Source: a virus
Strand: one strand, 5' to 3'
Virus record (IMG/VR): IMGVR_UViG_3300027847_002504
Coordinates: 1 to 64,000 of that record
Length of the DNA stretch: 64,000 nucleotides
In this document: positions 13,242 through 62,292 of the stretch, piece by piece
Numbering within the stretch: position 1 is the first letter of the stretch
How the letters are laid out: the number at the start of each line of letters is the position of its first letter
The notes under the pieces: model-generated
What the model saw: the letters and a program-made list of their open reading frames with translations, nothing else
What the model was told of the DNA's origin: nothing
Databases searched by the model: none
Program-made: the position numbers and the translations under genes

Positions 13242-13808
13242 TTACTCCGAATGGATTATAAAAGAGATTATTGAGTCAGATGCAAGTGTTACAGCATAAT
13301 TATTTAAGCCAACTGTAAAGACATATGTTTCACCAACAAATATGAATGTAAACTCCTGACCTCCGCCTTCGTCGAAGACGAGCGACCCCCCAGAGTTTTT
13401 AATTTTAACTGTCTGGGCATCTATGACTAAAAATCCATGTTCATCAGTATTCACTGGAAACACCACTCCTACCTCTGAGAATGATCCTAAATTGATAGTC
13501 TCAAGTGAATCCAGGGTATAAGTTGTTGACATGTCCACGAGGGAGTTTGATGAGGATGAAGAGCTACTTTCTACTTTGTAAGTGAAGTTTTCGAAATGGG
13601 GCATGACAAATGATTCCGTTTCATACAGGCTCCATTCGTTATTGTCGTTTTGAACTCTAATTGACACATAATATCTTTGTCCGGGCTCAAGGTTATTCCC
13701 ACCACCATAGACCATAGTGGTTTTTATTGTATCGACATTTCCACTATCCCAGATGTTTGCAGCACCAGCTGTTGTTCCAACAATTATTTGTACCGTCTTA
13801 GCACTCAT
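13242..13808 (-). CDS. Putative tail/adhesin accessory protein
   Basis: 188 residues, beta-rich, with a short Ser run (residues about 82-87) like its larger neighbour. Start overlaps the preceding stop (TAATG). Probably structural by context; no family recognised. Confidence 0.55.
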   Translation of the reverse strand: MSAKTVQIIVGTTAGAANIWDSGNVDTIKTTMVYGGGNNLEPGQRYYVSIRVQNDNNEWSLYETESFVMPHFENFTYKVESSSSSSSNSLVDMSTTYTLDSLETINLGSFSEVGVVFPVNTDEHGFLVIDAQTVKIKNSGGSLVFDEGGGQEFTFIFVGETYVFTVGLNNYAVTLASDSIISFIIHSE

Positions 13809-25727: not shown

Positions 25728-27326
25728 ATGGACTGGTACAAAAAAACTTATTTAGAAAAATACTTGACTGCTGATGCGGATAATTCCGACGCCCCTTTTG
25801 TTCAGGCGCAGATTCTTTTGTCGGAAGTGGCAAAGAACATTCCCAATGGGCATGTTCTCAAAGGAAAGTCTTACATCGTTGGCGGAACTGTCAGAGATGA
25901 GATGCTTGGAATTATCCCCAAGGATATCGATGCTGTAATCGAATATCCCGATGGTGGCTTGGTGTTTGGCGATTACGTCACATCGATTCTTGGCTTGAAG
26001 CCCCCTATTGATAAGGGATACGGTGTTTACGCTGTCATATTGAAAGATTTGATATACAAAGGACAGACATACAATGTCGATGGCATTGAGATCGAAGCCG
26101 TTCAAACCAGAAAGGAGCAGTACAGGACCGGAAGTCGTAAACCGGAGGTTGCCTTTGGGACTCTTCAAGATGATGTTATGAGACGGGATTTTACTGTTAA
26201 CTCTCTTTTGAAGAAGATGGAGGCTGGACCTGTTATTTCCCCCGATGTTCTTGCAGAAAAAATATCTAATGGCGACATTGTGGATTTGACCGGAATGGGC
26301 TTGAAGGATATTGAAGATGGAATTATCAGGACTCCGAGCGATCCCAATCCGATCTTTGAGGACGATGCTCTTAGAATGCTTAGGGGTGTCAGATTTGCTG
26401 TTAAGCATGGATGGACTATGACTGACGAAGTGAAAGAGGCGATCAGGAATAATATTCACAATCTCTCCAATACTTCAGCAGAAAGATTTCGTGGTGAAAT
26501 TGACAAAATTGCTGGGTACGGTAAGATGCATGAAGCTATTCCGTTGATGGAAGAGCTTGATCTCCTTGAGCCCATTCTCCCTGAGATGCATGCTTTGATT
26601 GGAGTTGAACAGGATACTGTCCATCACAGTGAAGGGGATGCATACGTCCATACCTTGAAAGTTATTGAGGCTTTGGAAAATGAGAACCCCGATGCTGGAA
26701 TCCATCTTACTTGGGCGGCTATCTCTCACGATTGGGGGAAGGCAGTCACTCAAGAGAGGGTCGATGATAGAATCCATTTCTACAAGCACGAGAAGCATTC
26801 TGGAGATATGATTAAAGAGAGAATGAAGGCTTTGAAGTATCCCAATGACGTTGTCGATAAAACTGTTAAGCTTGTTGATAATCATATGAGAGGACACAGC
26901 GCCGGAGAATGGGGTGACAAGGCCTTTAGACGCTATTACAGAGATATGGACGATGCTTTTGATGACGTTCTTGCTCTTCTCGTCGCGGATGAAGTCTCTT
27001 CAATTCCCGCAGAAGGTGAGCTGAAGAACAATAGTGCGTTGATAAAGAACAGGATGCCTGAGTTAATGATGGAGAAGCTCCCTGAAAAGGGGAAGGACAT
27101 TATTGATGGGCATGAGATCATGAATATGTTGAGAGCCAGAGTTCCTGATATCAAGCCGGGGCGTCATATTGGAATCATCAAAGAAGTTCAGGAAGACATT
27201 ATTCTTGATAATCCGTCTTTGATCGATGAAGATCTTGAAGTCACGAAAGCGAATGTACGATCAGCCTTAGAGGCAGATCCGAGATTCCAGGAAGTTGTGC
27301 AGTCACTTGTTAGCTCACAAGTGTAA
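25728..27326 (+). CDS. cca: CCA-adding tRNA nucleotidyltransferase with HD domain
   Basis: 532 residues. Leader M-D-W-Y-K-K, then the class II nucleotidyltransferase core: G-G-T-V-R-D (52-57), K-D-I-D-A-V carrying the metal-binding D-x-D (66-68), R-R-D-F-T-V-N and the E-R-F-R-G-E helix, followed by an HD-type domain (V-H-T-L-K-V and S-H-D-W-G-K-A). Such enzymes add or repair the 3' CCA of tRNA; the HD part gives phosphatase/phosphodiesterase activity in bacterial relatives. Fits the tRNA cluster at 57.6-62.9 kb. It carries the same leader as several unrelated proteins here. Confidence 0.92.
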   Translation: MDWYKKTYLEKYLTADADNSDAPFVQAQILLSEVAKNIPNGHVLKGKSYIVGGTVRDEMLGIIPKDIDAVIEYPDGGLVFGDYVTSILGLKPPIDKGYGVYAVILKDLIYKGQTYNVDGIEIEAVQTRKEQYRTGSRKPEVAFGTLQDDVMRRDFTVNSLLKKMEAGPVISPDVLAEKISNGDIVDLTGMGLKDIEDGIIRTPSDPNPIFEDDALRMLRGVRFAVKHGWTMTDEVKEAIRNNIHNLSNTSAERFRGEIDKIAGYGKMHEAIPLMEELDLLEPILPEMHALIGVEQDTVHHSEGDAYVHTLKVIEALENENPDAGIHLTWAAISHDWGKAVTQERVDDRIHFYKHEKHSGDMIKERMKALKYPNDVVDKTVKLVDNHMRGHSAGEWGDKAFRRYYRDMDDAFDDVLALLVADEVSSIPAEGELKNNSALIKNRMPELMMEKLPEKGKDIIDGHEIMNMLRARVPDIKPGRHIGIIKEVQEDIILDNPSLIDEDLEVTKANVRSALEADPRFQEVVQSLVSSQV

Positions 27327-37742: not shown

Positions 37743-38402
37743 TCATTCTTCACTTTGTATCCTGCACACTCTCTCTATGGGATCATCAGTGAAGTTGGCT
37801 TTGGTCCAGCTTTTATACCATATCTCATCTGTTTGGACATGGTCATGTCGAACGCACTTTGCTATGTTATCACTGAAGAACTTGTTTGAGAAAGCCTCTT
37901 TGTTTCTGACAACGTATCCTTCGCAAGCCCCTCCGAATTCGGATTCGATTGGGATCGGGTGCTTCTCCAATTTTTTACTATTTTTATAAATAGTCGGAAC
38001 TGTGTCAAACCCAAAGTGCTTGGCGACCTCAACCGTGTCTCCCCAGGAAAACCATTCTTTGTCATATAAAACGGCGAAGACGAAAAACGCACTCGGTAAC
38101 CCTCCATACTCGATAGAATGCGTAGCATACATGTTCTCGCCGTAAATATACATGGATCTGGGGATCGAATGCTTGATCATGCCATACATTGTGGAAACAA
38201 GGGTTCTCCATTTCGTACTGGGACTGTCTACCGATCTTGCGTGAACTCGGTCAAGAGACATAACGGTATTCTCGCCGTCGAGTTTCTCAAGATAAACAAC
38301 TTCCTTGCCAATGAAACAATCTTCAGTTTCAAGGATTCTGTCTTCCTTGTCACTCTTCCGGTTGGGAGACCACGTCAAGTGGGGGGGGTGTGGGTATTCC
38401 AT
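37743..38402 (-). CDS. Rnl2-type RNA ligase
   Basis: 219 residues with the nucleotidyltransferase motifs of T4 Rnl2-like ligases: motif I E-K-L-D-G-E-N (adenylated Lys40), motif III Y-G-E-N-M-Y-A, motif IV E-G-Y-V-V-R, motif V A-K-C-V-R. It seals nicks in RNA. It is shorter than T4 Rnl2 (334 residues) and seems to lack the C-terminal domain. Starts M-E-Y-P-x-x-P-H-L, as in such short ligases. The start overlaps the upstream gene. Confidence 0.88.
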   Translation of the reverse strand: MEYPHPPHLTWSPNRKSDKEDRILETEDCFIGKEVVYLEKLDGENTVMSLDRVHARSVDSPSTKWRTLVSTMYGMIKHSIPRSMYIYGENMYATHSIEYGGLPSAFFVFAVLYDKEWFSWGDTVEVAKHFGFDTVPTIYKNSKKLEKHPIPIESEFGGACEGYVVRNKEAFSNKFFSDNIAKCVRHDHVQTDEIWYKSWTKANFTDDPIERVCRIQSEE

Positions 38403-45409: not shown

Positions 45410-46429
45410 TTATATTATAAGTTCTGTTTCTTTTTGATGTCTTTCTATTTCATCAATAGTTATTGTTGCAGCACCGTGCTTACCTACCACCACCCCAGCT
45501 GCGTTATTTGAGAATGAAGACGCTTCAACTGCGTCTCCACAAACAGCATAACTGGCTGTTAATGAGGCTATTACGGTGTCGCCAGCGCCTGATACATCAA
45601 AAACTTCTATTGCCTTGGTGGGAATATGCTTGAAATCTCCTCTACCTTCTACCAAAAGCATCCCGTCTGATCCGAGAGTTATTAATAATAAGACGGGCTT
45701 AAAAATACTAAAGATAGAATTCGCCACAAGTTCAAGTTGTTCATCCTCCAATGGGTTTTCCCATTCGTGATAATCCCGCATCCCAACCAATTCAAATGCC
45801 TCTTGCCTATTTGGGGTCATTATGGTCACCCCAGCCATTTCGAGTTTGTTTTTTATACATGGATCAATGGCAACTGGTATTTTAGCCTTTTTACAAGCAG
45901 AAATGACCTCTGTGACGATTCTTTGAGTGATTACGCCCTTCGCATAGTCTTCAATTATTATTGCGTCGTACAGGCCTTTTGAGAGATCCTCAGTGAGAAG
46001 GCCTATTAGAAGGGTTTCCATCCTTTCGCATATTTTTTTCGCTTCTTCTTTATCGTACCTAACGATTTGATGGTCATTGGCAATAACTCTTGTCTTAACA
46101 GTTGTCTCTCGATACTCTTCGGAGCCAGACGCTATTAAGGATCGGCTCGTTTCAATACCAATTTTTTGCATTAGATTGAATAGTTCAGTCCCATCGTTAT
46201 CTGATCCAACAATTCCCATTGCCGTAACTTTGCATCCTAATGTCGCAAGATTTGCTGCAACGTTAGCCGCTCCACCTGGAACTGATCTTTCAGATTTTAT
46301 TATTACAATCGGAACTGGAGCCTCTGGAGAAAGCCGAACTGCATCTCCAACAATATATTTGTCCAGCATTAGATCTCCAATCACAAGAATTCTTGTGTTG
46401 GCAAATCTGCCCTTAAAATGCTCGTACAT
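45410..46429 (-). CDS. PfkB-family heptose-7-phosphate kinase (HldE/RfaE N-terminal type)
   Basis: 339 residues. V-P-G-G-A-A-N-V-A-A-N-L (ribokinase signature), I-V-G-S-D-N-D-G, Y-A-K-G-V, and D-V-S-G-A-G-D-T-V with the catalytic Asp match the kinase half of HldE, which phosphorylates D-glycero-manno-heptose 7-phosphate at C1. The nucleotidyltransferase half is encoded separately at 55235. Pathway: ADP-heptose, donor for LPS core or for GT9-type transferases. Confidence 0.85.
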   Translation of the reverse strand: MYEHFKGRFANTRILVIGDLMLDKYIVGDAVRLSPEAPVPIVIIKSERSVPGGAANVAANLATLGCKVTAMGIVGSDNDGTELFNLMQKIGIETSRSLIASGSEEYRETTVKTRVIANDHQIVRYDKEEAKKICERMETLLIGLLTEDLSKGLYDAIIIEDYAKGVITQRIVTEVISACKKAKIPVAIDPCIKNKLEMAGVTIMTPNRQEAFELVGMRDYHEWENPLEDEQLELVANSIFSIFKPVLLLITLGSDGMLLVEGRGDFKHIPTKAIEVFDVSGAGDTVIASLTASYAVCGDAVEASSFSNNAAGVVVGKHGAATITIDEIERHQKETELII

Positions 46430-47282: not shown

Positions 47283-47858
47283 TTATAAATCTGACTTTTT
47301 GTTAAATTTTGTCGCGGCCTCGCAAAATTTTAATAAATCATTATCTGAAAAATTGTTTTTGGCAATGTTTGCAATAAAACAAACGAATCTGACGTTATTT
47401 TTAAAGTACCCAAAATTAGAGTTGATTCTATCAAGACTCGCTCTCATCATACCTTTGTCTTCCCATCCGGCAATAGAGTTTGGCAAAACCATATTCCATC
47501 CAGTAATAGGGCAAATGCCTTTCTGAGACTCCCATAGTGATTTTAAGAATTCCAGGTCTATATCCCCTTTTTTCTGAGGCCTTTCTTTGCCCCTTGTTCT
47601 ATAATTTTTTAGAAAATATCTAAACCTTGTAAACCCATCTCTATTGTTTCCACAATAGTTTTTAATATTTATTTGATTCCTTTTAATATTTTCTTCCGAC
47701 ACGAACTTCAAGGCGTTCTTCCCCCTGTGGTTCCCATAACAAGAAGAGCAACAATATTGAAGCCTCCCAAGTCTCTCGCTTCTATTTATTTCTTTCCTTT
47801 CTTTTTCAAAAATTTTTTCACATGCTGGGTTAGCGCATTTTATTTTCTCTTTTGCCAT
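47283..47858 (-). CDS. HNH-type endonuclease, possible homing nuclease
   Basis: 191 residues. N-terminal C-x4-C...C-C-S-S-C zinc region, then C-P-I-T-G-W and A-S-L-D-R-I-N-S-N-F-G-Y-x-x-x-N-V-R-F-V, a common form of phage HNH/homing nucleases (D-R-I at the His-metal position). It lies 118 bases downstream of the intron-bearing tmRNA gene on the same strand, with its own TATAAT and a GAGGTGAT RBS. It may drive spread of that ORF-less intron; this is inference. Confidence 0.7.
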   Translation of the reverse strand: MAKEKIKCANPACEKIFEKERKEINRSERLGRLQYCCSSCYGNHRGKNALKFVSEENIKRNQINIKNYCGNNRDGFTRFRYFLKNYRTRGKERPQKKGDIDLEFLKSLWESQKGICPITGWNMVLPNSIAGWEDKGMMRASLDRINSNFGYFKNNVRFVCFIANIAKNNFSDNDLLKFCEAATKFNKKSDL

Positions 47859-47933: not shown

Positions 47934-47971
47934 AAAAAGACTGAGTGCTTTATAGGCACTCAGCCTTTTTC
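47934..47971 (-). terminator. Rho-independent terminator of tmRNA
   Basis: Stem pairing G-C-T-G-A-G-T-G-C with G-C-A-C-T-C-A-G, followed on the minus strand by a run of six T. It begins 5 bases after the encoded CCA of the tmRNA. T-runs on both sides could make it bidirectional. Confidence 0.8.
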
Positions 47972-47975
47972 ATAT

Positions 47976-48680
47976 TGGTGGAGACGGCGGGGCTTGTACA
48001 CCCAGACTTTCACCTGGCAAGGACTATTTCTTCACCTGACAAGTCAGGGGAGAGCGTGTTATGGTTTTACCCATCCTAGTGATCCATAGTATAAATACCT
48101 TAGGACTCTATAAGTCTCTAGATGGCTTCCTCTTTTCAGATTCACCATACGGCGTTGGCATATTGATTACTCAACTTAGCTTTCACCGTGAAAGCTCTCA
48201 GTTTCCAATGAGAATCACTTCTCATGGCGACCAATTTGATCGAACCCGCGTCCTAAAACAACTTTATATCAACGTCTACATGTATAGTTAATTTTGCTAT
48301 CTTTTAGTCTGTGCCGTATTACATTCGCAGGTATTAACACCAACTGGCAGTATGACGATCACCTAAAACTTTCACTCTCAACTCAGGTGAGTCAGTATCA
48401 AGCGCTTTCCTCGATTTTTGTCGCTTACGGATTTATCAAGGGTCCATCCGTTAAGCGCTCGGCTCAATTAAGGCCGAGTTAGTCTGTCAACTAATTAGGC
48501 AGCGATTGCAAAGGCCGGAGCCTCTACTGGTGCTGCAAAACCTGCATCAAGACCAGGGAACTGAAGGATTTCTTCGTTGTTCGCTTTTATGTTTTTTAAC
48601 TGATGTTTAACGAGGCCAACAGTCATCCTCGACATGCAATTGATATTCTACCATTCTAGTCGAATACCTGTTACGTCCCC
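47976..48680 (-). ncRNA. ssrA: tmRNA (ssrA) precursor with group I intron
   Basis: The 5' end GGGGACG (48680-48674) pairs fully with CGTCTCC, followed by the encoded ACCA (47979-47976). GGTATTCGACTAG near the 5' end and GGACGCGGGTTCGAT before the intron match the conserved tmRNA ends. The tag frame runs from a GCG resume codon (48584-48582) to TAA (48497-48495): 29 residues, starting A-N-N-E-E and ending F-A-I-A-A, longer than usual bacterial tags (about 8-15, some to 35) but with the normal A-A end read by proteases. After removing the 246-base intron the RNA is about 459 bases. It frees stalled ribosomes and tags the incomplete protein. Confidence 0.92.
47993..48238 (-). other. Group I intron inside the tmRNA T-loop
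   Basis: The tmRNA T-stem and loop are split: GCGGG-TTCGAT on one side (ends 48239) and C-CCCGC on the other (starts 47992). Joining them restores a perfect 5-7-5 T-arm. The 5' exon ends in U and the intron ends in G, as group I splicing needs. Inside are elements close to the group I R (ATCTAGAGACTTATA) and S (AAGAAATAGTCC) core, which form P7. No ORF is inside. Splice points could shift by one base. Confidence 0.85.
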
Positions 48681-49866: not shown

Positions 49867-50379
49867 TCATGAGTTAAAATGGTTTAATAATATACCGATA
49901 GATTCCGTTAATGTCAAGTCGTTTGTATTTATTGTTAACTCGGCATCAACTGGCTGCTCAAACGGGGCATCGTATCCAGTGAATCCTTTGATTTCTCCAT
50001 CTTTAGCCTTCTTCCACATCCCTTTAACGTCTCTATTGGCGCATTCTTCTGGTGAACAATCGACATGGATTAGGTTTAGATCTGAAACGATCTCTCTAAC
50101 CACATCTCTCATTTCCTCAGTTGGGGAAACATAGCTTGCTAATACAATAATATTTTCCTGGTTCAGTAACTCTGCAACGTGAGCTACCCTTTTCAAATTT
50201 TCTTTTCTCCCTTCGTTAGAAAACCCCAGGCCCTTGCATAAACCCTCTCTTAATTTATCTCCATCTAAATGGACAATCTTGTGGCCAAGAGTCTCTAACT
50301 CTCTCTTGAAAGACAATGCCAAGGTTGTTTTCCCACTGCACGGGATTCCGGTAAACCAAATTGTTATATTTTTCCTCAT
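49867..50379 (-). CDS. cysC: Adenylylsulfate (APS) kinase
   Basis: 170 residues, close to the usual size. G-I-P-C-S-G-K-T-T P-loop (11-19), L-D-G-D-K-L-R-E-G-L, G-F-S-N-E-G-R-K-E-N and A-S-Y-V-S-P-T-E-E-M-R are APS-kinase motifs. It makes PAPS from APS and ATP. No sulfurylase is seen here, so the host would supply APS. The two sulfotransferase-like genes at 37004 and 41331 are the likely users. Confidence 0.9.
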   Translation of the reverse strand: MRKNITIWFTGIPCSGKTTLALSFKRELETLGHKIVHLDGDKLREGLCKGLGFSNEGRKENLKRVAHVAELLNQENIIVLASYVSPTEEMRDVVREIVSDLNLIHVDCSPEECANRDVKGMWKKAKDGEIKGFTGYDAPFEQPVDAELTINTNDLTLTESIGILLNHFNS

Positions 50380-52141: not shown

Positions 52142-52569
52142 TATTCTTTGTATTGTATATACCCTTCAAGAACAGTCTGCCAATCAGATAACGGATTAAA
52201 TCCGGCTTTATCATCAAGAATAACATTGCAATAAAACTTCTTGCTAAAATCTTGAAATTCATTTGGGAGACATTCTAAATTAGAATTTATGAAATCAAAC
52301 TTGATTCCATGTTTCTTAAACCATTTCAAATACCCTTCTATGTAAGGCTCGTGTGAGCAAGTCCATAAGATTAAAATCAATTCGGGATCTGCTGTCAACG
52401 TTTTCAACGCCTCTTCTGCCATAGGATAAAATGATTGGTTCTCCAAATCGTTTAAATAATATCCCCCAGGGCATATTGTTCCATGCAAGTCGATAGCCCA
52501 ATAAGTTCTGTCCCACCCGCGAGCGAGCTTGTTTTCGTATGCTATCTGTATACTTCTTTTAAGGCTCAT
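52141..52569 (-). CDS. HAD-superfamily phosphatase-like protein
   Basis: 142 residues. W-A-I-D-L-H-G-T-I is motif I (the second Asp is replaced by His), L-I-L-W-T-C-S motif II and N-V-I-L-D-D-K-A-G motif IV. Small cap-less HAD phosphatase, or inactive because of the D-x-H change. Overlaps the PRPP synthetase stop by 4 bases. Confidence 0.7.
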   Translation of the reverse strand: MSLKRSIQIAYENKLARGWDRTYWAIDLHGTICPGGYYLNDLENQSFYPMAEEALKTLTADPELILILWTCSHEPYIEGYLKWFKKHGIKFDFINSNLECLPNEFQDFSKKFYCNVILDDKAGFNPLSDWQTVLEGYIQYKE

Positions 52570-53552
52570 TCGTCGTCCTCCGGTGAAGAAAAGAGATCCG
52601 AAATCGACCTTCCGTCGTTAGCTCTAAGGACACACTCTCCGATTAATTTTCCAAGGTTTACGATTTTAATTTTTGGACTTTTCTTTACGTCAATAGAGTT
52701 TGTCACCAAAACTTTTTCGATACAACTATTTTCAATATTTTCATAGCTCTTGATTTTTCCATTGTTGATAAAGCAGCCATGAGCGACAGCAACATAAACT
52801 TTTGTTGCCCCCTTTTTCATAAGCAACTCCGCCCCATTGATCAAGGTGCCACCAGTCGAGGTCAAGTCGTCTACAAGAACACAGACCTTACCGTCAACCT
52901 CTCCCATGATGAAGTCAGATGTCGTGTTTGTTCCGCTATGTCTGGTTTTTGATATTACAGCCAATCTTGATCCTGGAACGAACTTTCTGTACTCTTTGGC
53001 AATCTTTCCAGCGCCTTCGTCTGGAGCGACCATTACAATGTCTTCTGTGGGGCATTTGCCAATCGTCTTAAGAAGTTCTTCCACCATAATCTTGGTGCAT
53101 GAAATGTGATCGACACCAATATCGAAGAACCCCTCGATTTGTGGAGCATGTAAGTTTATGAGAAGAGCGTCGTCTGCCCCCGCATACCCAATAAGTCCAG
53201 CCACCAACTTTGATGTGATGGGAACTCTTGGCTTATCTTTGCGATCCTGTCTTGAGTATCCCATATAAGGAATAATTACGGTGATATTTTTTGCCTTTGC
53301 CCTCTTAGCACAATCGATCATGACGAGCAATTCCATTAAGTCATCGTTCACTGGATCGAAGATGGTTTGGATTATGACAATGTCTCGTTTTCGGAGGTTA
53401 CAGTTATATTCGACATGTATTTCCCCCCGGTTGCTATTGCTTTCAAAAAGCTTGATAAATCTGTTGCCAAGTGGAATCGATAAATACCGCGCAACGCTTT
53501 TTGCCAACTTTTCGTTGGAACGCCCAGAAAATACGAGAGGTTCACCGTTCAT
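52566..53552 (-). CDS. prs: Ribose-phosphate pyrophosphokinase (PRPP synthetase)
   Basis: 328 residues, full length. Q-T-I-F-D-P-V-N-D-D-L-M-E-L-L, Y-M-G-Y-S-R-Q-D-R-K, L-H-A-P-Q-I-E-G-F-F, and the PRPP loop V-L-V-D-D-L-T-S-T-G-G-T are diagnostic. It makes PRPP from ribose 5-phosphate and ATP for nucleotide and NAD synthesis. With the nicotinamidase at 38726 it suggests help for host NAD or nucleotide pools. Confidence 0.93.
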   Translation of the reverse strand: MNGEPLVFSGRSNEKLAKSVARYLSIPLGNRFIKLFESNSNRGEIHVEYNCNLRKRDIVIIQTIFDPVNDDLMELLVMIDCAKRAKAKNITVIIPYMGYSRQDRKDKPRVPITSKLVAGLIGYAGADDALLINLHAPQIEGFFDIGVDHISCTKIMVEELLKTIGKCPTEDIVMVAPDEGAGKIAKEYRKFVPGSRLAVISKTRHSGTNTTSDFIMGEVDGKVCVLVDDLTSTGGTLINGAELLMKKGATKVYVAVAHGCFINNGKIKSYENIENSCIEKVLVTNSIDVKKSPKIKIVNLGKLIGECVLRANDGRSISDLFSSPEDDE

Positions 53553-61836: not shown

Positions 61837-61916
61837 TGGTGAACACAGTTGGATTCGAACCAACGATCTCTTGCATGTGTCATACAAGCGCTTTAGCCAG
61901 ACTAAGCTATGCGTCC
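61837..61916 (-). tRNA. tRNA-Val(GAC)-like with enlarged anticodon loop
   Basis: Acceptor GGACGCA/TGTGTTC, D-arm GCTT/AAGC, T-arm GTTGG-TTCGAAT-CCAAC, encoded CCA. The anticodon arm CTTGT/GCAAG encloses 9 bases, ATGACACAT, where 7 are normal; GAC lies at the expected place. Two extra bases make the identity uncertain. Confidence 0.7.
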
Positions 61917-62228: not shown

Positions 62229-62292
62229 TGGTGCATCGGGCGGTAATCGAACCCGCAACCTTCAGATTAAGAGCCTGTTGCGCCACCAATGT
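62229..62292 (-). tRNA. tRNA-Lys(CUU) lacking the D-arm
   Basis: Acceptor ACATTGG/CCGATGC (first pair A-C), anticodon loop CTCTTAA (CUU), T-arm GCGGG-TTCGATT-ACCGC, encoded CCA. Only 7 bases lie between acceptor and anticodon stem, so no D-arm exists. A deletion between direct repeats in the D-arm would explain it. Confidence 0.65.

Follow-up and report, generated by a model that had tools for sequence, protein, structure and literature searches.

A phage tmRNA gene whose T-loop is split by a group I intron of the bacterial tmRNA family

Results

The interrupted tmRNA gene and its surroundings

The window analyzed here corresponds to the first 64,000 bases of virus record G000, which is 114,790 bases long. 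The record encodes a terminase large subunit (PHROG 2, 1.4e-24) and the gene under study is surrounded by phage-type ORFs, in agreement with the phage-like genome proposed in a first-pass annotation made from the sequence. No loci related to this terminase were found, the nearest terminases being only about 23-25% identical. ARAGORN predicted six tRNAs in the window; its tRNA-Cys (61837-61916) carries ACA as anticodon, although Cys codons are not read by ACA, and a borderline seventh tRNA (62232-62292, 30.7 bits) was detected by Rfam only. The window also encodes a CCA-adding enzyme (25728-27326), an RNA ligase (37743-38402), a PfkB-type kinase (45410-46429), an adenylylsulphate kinase-like protein (49867-50379) and a ribose-phosphate pyrophosphokinase (52566-53552). 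The features of the tmRNA locus are the following:

48680-47976, minus strand: complete, intron-split phage tmRNA gene (5' end 48680, CCA end 47976)
48239..48680, minus strand: tmRNA 5' exon (RF00023, 91.9 bits; sequence; ARAGORN on joined exons)
48495..48584, minus strand: tag reading frame, at most 29 aa, ANNEEILQFPGLDAGFAAPVEAPAFAIAA* (sequence, ARAGORN)
47993..48238, minus strand: group I intron, IA-like, 246 nt (bacterial-only covariance model; covariation; sub-threshold with RF00028)
47976..47992, minus strand: tmRNA 3' exon (sequence; ARAGORN; full pairing with GCGGG and GGGGACG)
47934..47970, minus strand: rho-independent terminator-like hairpin, directly 3' of the CCA end, with U-tracts on either side
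47283..47858, minus strand: free-standing HNH/EndoVII-like endonuclease gene (P0001), 191 aa (PHROG matches)

The 5' exon contains the 5' acceptor strand, the D-like region, the tag frame, the pseudoknot region and the first half of the T-arm, and terminates in ...GCGGGTTCGAT, with the -1U at 48239. The 3' exon provides loop nucleotide 7, the T-stem strand CCCGC, the acceptor strand CGTCTCC and ACCA, the CCA being encoded. As read from the sequence, the acceptor stem GGGGACG/CGTCTCC includes G3.U70, the alanine-identity pair; the T-stem pairs GCGGG with CCCGC, and the T-loop after rejoining is TTCGAT|C. The G3.U70 pair is the one used by alanyl-tRNA synthetase (AlaRS). The gene has the standard order, one-piece and not permuted. 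The two ends previously proposed for it are exact (48680/47976), with acceptor, G3.U70, CCA and tag frame intact. The stem of the terminator-like hairpin was picked up by the scan on the plus strand only, its minus-strand assignment coming from the sequence.

The Rfam tmRNA model RF00023 recognized the gene with 91.9 bits (cut-off 47), the alignment collapsing precisely at the T-arm. ARAGORN reported no tmRNA in the raw window and one tmRNA when 47993-48238 were omitted. The acceptor and T-arm, with CCA and G3.U70, are closed only in the joined exons, whose predicted junction sequence is GCGGGTTCGATCCCCGC. The earlier proposal that splicing would rebuild the T-arm is thus borne out by the closure of GCGGG/CCCGC and by the detection of a tmRNA in the joined exons. 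Without splicing, both the T-arm and the acceptor stay open, so that the tmRNA very probably would mature only after intron removal. The predicted tag ends in a small hydrophobic degron (...APAFAIAA*). ARAGORN takes as tag only the last eight codons of the 48495..48584 frame, so that the resume codon has two readings; a similar 29-aa tag, AKNVVDFASRVASKIADVVAPAPAFALAA, is present in another of the phage loci described below (L161).

Identity and boundaries of the insert

To our insert corresponds an intron form already known in bacteria, with insertion at T-loop position 7 in 883 sequences from 21 phyla (PMC11915505). Scanning species genomes for 3' regions of tmRNA genes having a T-loop without a T-stem directly after it gave 27 bacterial genes with an insert of 250-640 nt that ends in G and across which the T-stem, the acceptor and the 5' acceptor can be rejoined, in agreement with the statement of the first-pass annotation that such introns occur in bacteria. 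The set includes Methylophaga, Chromatiales, Paraliobacillus and Omnitrophota. The intron form of bacterial tmRNA genes was reportedly described by Williams in 2002.

A covariance model was built from 23 of these 27 bacterial introns, with no phage sequence included. Its match covers the whole insert of the window (47987-48249), with 216.8 bits and an E-value of 3e-69, and is the only one within the 114.8-kb record. The general Rfam group I model RF00028 gave 22.9 bits, under its gathering cut-off of 50. The Rfam check suggested in the first-pass annotation was thus positive for the tmRNA but negative for the group I intron; we consider RF00028 insensitive here because the family-specific model reaches 216.8 bits.

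The insertion lies between T-loop nucleotides 6 and 7 (TTCGAT|C), and the splice boundaries were set at 48239/48238 and 47993/47992 by the -1U and omega-G rules, the omega-G being at 47993. When the join was offset as a control, ARAGORN also accepted junctions leaving the loop length unchanged or almost so, and the exact boundary therefore rests on these two rules; as C is the first base of the intron and of the 3' exon alike, a shift of 1 nt would leave the joined product unchanged. The -1U, the U.G in P1 and the terminal omega-G are invariant in the 29 introns compared (29/29 sequences). The interruption of this phage tmRNA T-loop by a group I intron is confirmed, with exact coordinates. Judged by sequence and predicted architecture, it is a homologous intron, with the same site and boundaries as the bacterial tmRNA intron form.

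Predicted fold and covariation

We drew the canonical group I structure on the window and counted pairs over 29 introns aligned with MAFFT. The main elements are:

48228..48242, minus strand: P1, exon CGAU (48242-48239) with GUCG (48231-48228)
48050..48199, minus strand: P3, GAGAGC (48199-48194) with GCUCUC (48055-48050)
48122..48189, minus strand: P4-P6 domain, P4 48189-48184/48154-48149, P6 48148-48144/48126-48122, P6a with a GAAA loop
48021..48118, minus strand: P7, pseudoknot with P3, 48118-48113 with AGUCC 48025-48021
47994..48020, minus strand: P9.0, UUG (48020-48018)/CAA (47996-47994), and P9, 48017-48012/48007-48002, with a GAAA loop

The structure, on which the first-pass annotation had staked its case, fits 47993-48238 from P1 to P9. 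Standard pairs occupied 91.2% of the cells versus 72.8% in shuffles, and dropped to 34-44% when the structure was slid by 1-3 columns. Two-sided changes were present in 50 of the 68 pairs, a value as high being reached in none of 500 shuffles. The P3/P7 pseudoknot core, P4-P6, P8 and P9 were all recovered with covariation. P1 was paired in 116/116 cells, the splice-site U.G being kept in 29/29 introns. P3 and P7 were both 100% paired; both sides are changed in four of the six P3 pairs, and in P7 G-C is replaced by U-A in L106 and L152. The R/S-like core elements noted earlier in the 246 bases correspond to P7, with J8/7 reading UGAAGAAAU.

All three P9.0 pairs showed two-sided changes, UUG/CAA in the window versus mostly AGC/GCU in bacteria being a full compensatory switch. 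P9 is fully paired in the window; many rows were misaligned there by MAFFT. P7.2 and P7.1 were paired in 96.5% and 91.5% of cells, respectively, with two-sided changes in every pair. In the window, the core helices are all paired except for one outer P7.1 mismatch. The presence of P7.1 and P7.2 between the 5' strand of P7 and the 3' strand of P3 places the intron, by layout, in subgroup IA. The P10 pairing seems minimal across the whole family, which leaves the alignment of the exons in the second step unexplained.

Introns of the same kind in other phage tmRNA genes

DNA similarity searches with the whole gene gave no match in phage or plasmid records, and we therefore used pattern and covariance searches. 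A first viral pattern returned just ordinary uninterrupted tmRNAs or unrelated DNA, and a second one no intron gene that rejoins. Searching IMG/VR with two intron-core or T-loop patterns and one combined pattern added 11 distinct loci whose tmRNA genes can be rejoined, of which several recur in a second contig; all 11 matched the bacterial-only intron model. BLASTN with one phage locus additionally retrieved the isolated Pseudanabaena phage PA-SR01 (MT234670.1), where the intron is unannotated and scores 63.9 bits with the bacterial-only model. The papers on PA-SR01 describe three tRNAs and report no tmRNA. In total, 12 distinct phage loci beyond the window were thus obtained, PA-SR01 included. 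For the window and the 11/11 other phage loci tested, ARAGORN found no tmRNA before intron removal and a tmRNA after it. Terminase models gave a clear match in three of the contigs (G002, G006, G007) and a weak one in G003; the phage status of the remaining contigs rests on IMG/VR.

ARAGORN called the permuted form in three of these 12 loci:

L162:2048-2328: permuted tmRNA with T-loop group I intron
L164:12564-12799: permuted tmRNA with T-loop group I intron
L199:1948-2174 (MT234670.1 complement 116499-116725): permuted tmRNA with T-loop group I intron, in the lytic phage PA-SR01

In these genes the intron-bearing T-arm comes first, followed by the 3' strand of the acceptor; a short segment intervenes before the 5' strand of the acceptor, after which comes the tag. 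For L162, L164 and PA-SR01 the tags (VNNIYPFSRKRALVAA, ASNDSTYDQRLAA and AKNNICQFSRKAAPVAA, respectively) are of alpha- or cyano-type. Table 3 of PMC11915505 contains standard, permuted and intron forms and not the permuted-plus-intron combination; such a gene is a form missing from that published table.

Several additional ribozyme matches were observed in these contigs. A second group I intron-like match (L162:2669-2867, minus strand, 43.5 bits) lies upstream of the permuted tmRNA, apparently inside a phage tRNA-Tyr(GTA) gene, at its anticodon loop, and a second intron-model match (66 bits) is located in G011 (13456-13652). Pistol ribozyme matches of about 60 bits occur in two contigs of intron-tmRNA phages (L159:2145-2212 and L173:4882-4950), the former about 450 bases upstream of the tmRNA.

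Endonuclease genes and intron phylogeny

The window intron has no internal homing-endonuclease ORF, LAGLIDADG included. An antisense LAGLIDADG ORF is present inside four phage introns (L159, L161, L163, L170), likewise inside a bacterial one (L145), and a fifth phage intron (L165) contains a LAGLIDADG remnant. The resulting 5/13 phage introns with such an ORF or remnant, in a small and pattern-selected sample, is above the 4.1% of bacterial tmRNA introns with LAGLIDADG genes (PMC11915505).

The endonuclease gene P0001 lies 117 bp downstream of the tmRNA, as a single copy and the only such gene found in the record. It matches PHROG 3322 'endonuclease' (5.9e-19) and, weakly, PHROG 1035 'endonuclease VII' (1.2e-5). 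A homologue with 48% identity is present in one of the 12 other intron phages (G007/L167), directly downstream of the intron-tmRNA. Compared by eye with PMC6083498, P0001 has SLDRINS...NNVRF (DRIN) where the EndoVII homing enzymes of DHHRN type have DHDH, and it does not have the motif set of the DHHRN (F-CphI/EndoVII) family (CX2-4C, DHDH, R, CX2C, N). In a PDB sequence search, P0001 matched nothing but PacI, and that weakly (E 0.06); its single-sequence AlphaFold model was poor (pLDDT 51). Collaborative homing by P0001 is thus kept as a lead, the protein being without the DHDH motif. As a separate observation, a LAGLIDADG relative adjoins the uninterrupted permuted tmRNA of Sphingobium phage Lacusarx and overlaps the tmRNA start (L200:1438-2326; KY629563.1 74324-75212); the T-loop of this tmRNA as annotated is AGCGTTA, not TTCRANN.

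In the tree of the 5' intron half, phage and bacterial introns were interleaved, with at least three label changes forced by supported branches. Owing to thin sampling and some long branches, the tree gives no direction of transfer. Mobility of the intron is likely.

Discussion

We consider, with a probability of about 0.92, that an IA-like group I intron of the bacterial tmRNA family has entered a standard-order, one-piece phage tmRNA gene at T-loop position 7, and that this intron would splice itself out and persist as a mobile, near-neutral passenger. In the transcript, the intron would fold from P1 to P9, its internal guide GUCG pairing with the CGAU of the 5' exon; a guanosine would be used for the cut after U48239, which would then be joined to C47992. 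Joining would restore the T-arm and acceptor, after which the RNA may undergo trimming, receive alanine and act together with the SmpB of the host. SmpB was not found in the 114.8-kb record, so that host SmpB would be needed, and no phage SmpB was found in the records examined here. Spread of the intron is plausibly aided by homing endonucleases, the LAGLIDADG genes within the introns of other phages being candidates; in the window, the adjacent free-standing HNH-type gene perhaps acts on intronless tmRNA genes.

The first-pass annotation had proposed that the intron gives the phage a switch to time or condition its ribosome-rescue RNA. A closed T-arm does need the spliced product, and intron endonucleases co-opted for phage competition are known (PMC11620839). 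However, chromosomal tmRNA genes of many bacteria carry the same intron at the same site (PMC11915505), its presence is patchy, we found neither a riboswitch nor a protein-binding or alternative fold, and nothing suggests conditional splicing. The proposed switch thus found no support and is unlikely; it is simpler to regard the intron as a selfish or homing element, since the intron family is common to bacterial chromosomal tmRNA and conditional splicing is unsupported. The sub-threshold score with the general Rfam model could point instead to a degenerate relic, in which a non-functional tmRNA gene retains an intron that no longer splices. We regard this as still less probable, given the pairing of every core helix apart from the P7.1 mismatch and the intact acceptor, G3.U70, T-stem, tag frame and CCA, which would hardly have been preserved without selection.

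As the record is a metagenomic virus contig, host DNA or an assembly artefact also has to be weighed against a true phage gene. The contig nevertheless carries a terminase, with the gene among phage-type ORFs, the arrangement of intron-tmRNA and HNH gene is repeated in another phage contig and the isolated phage PA-SR01 also has an intron-tmRNA, which makes such an origin highly improbable. That 246 random bases happen to lie between tmRNA ends has nothing in its favor beyond the weak generic Rfam score, and is refuted by the E-value of 3e-69, by the independence of the model and by the end-to-end boundaries; we give it practically no weight.

The invaded phage tmRNA gene shares with the bacterial intron form the insertion point, the -1U and omega-G, a homologous intron, the P7.1/P7.2 layout and the restored T-arm, and differs from these bacterial genes in being carried by a phage. 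It belongs to the bacterial intron form of tmRNA genes, here borne by a phage. Phage-encoded tmRNAs are themselves known, from Bacillus phage G and mycobacteriophages (PMC4131195) and from the marine phage Melnitz (PMC9004378); these are standard, permuted or tag-less and, unlike the window gene, have no intron reported. Of phage tmRNAs, 79 are listed in the main text of PMC11915505, which leaves phage introns unmentioned. The T4 td, SPO1 and Twort introns are also group I ribozymes in phages, often with a homing endonuclease, but they sit in protein-coding genes, as did all phage introns known by 2014 according to a review of that year (PMC3984707), whereas the window intron sits in a structural RNA gene. 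The neighborhood of P0001 resembles that of F-CphI, which takes part in collaborative homing beside the intron-bearing psbA of cyanophage S-PM2 (PMC6083498), in that a free-standing endonuclease gene adjoins an intron-bearing phage gene; F-CphI has DHDH, whereas P0001 is without it and has only a putative target.

We found no report of a phage tmRNA with a group I intron in the literature covered by our search, outside which lay supplementary tables and most subscription papers. The phage setting of the tmRNA intron appears new, priority being not proven, with a phage intron entry in the tmRNA database possible. Gene finders that need an intact T-arm miss intron forms, and ARAGORN-based surveys of phage tmRNAs therefore undercount them. 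The more interesting wider result is that phage tmRNA introns occur in both standard and permuted genes, L162, L164 and PA-SR01 sharing the order of the known two-piece tmRNA genes but adding a T-loop group I intron. A tentative scenario, which we hold to be somewhat less than an even bet, is that large phages act as reservoir and carrier of tmRNA introns, in standard and permuted genes, spreading them via intronic LAGLIDADG or adjacent free-standing HNH genes and seeding the tmRNA introns of bacteria.

These genes extend phage group I introns from protein-coding genes to a structural RNA recognized by the translation machinery. To yield a two-piece RNA, the permuted intron genes would need the intervening segment to be cut out in addition to ribozyme splicing, and they raise a new processing question, the order of splicing and of cutting the transcript in two. 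Together, they provide a clean natural setting in which to ask if splicing is required for a working phage tmRNA, and if introns are carried from one bacterial tmRNA gene to another by phages.
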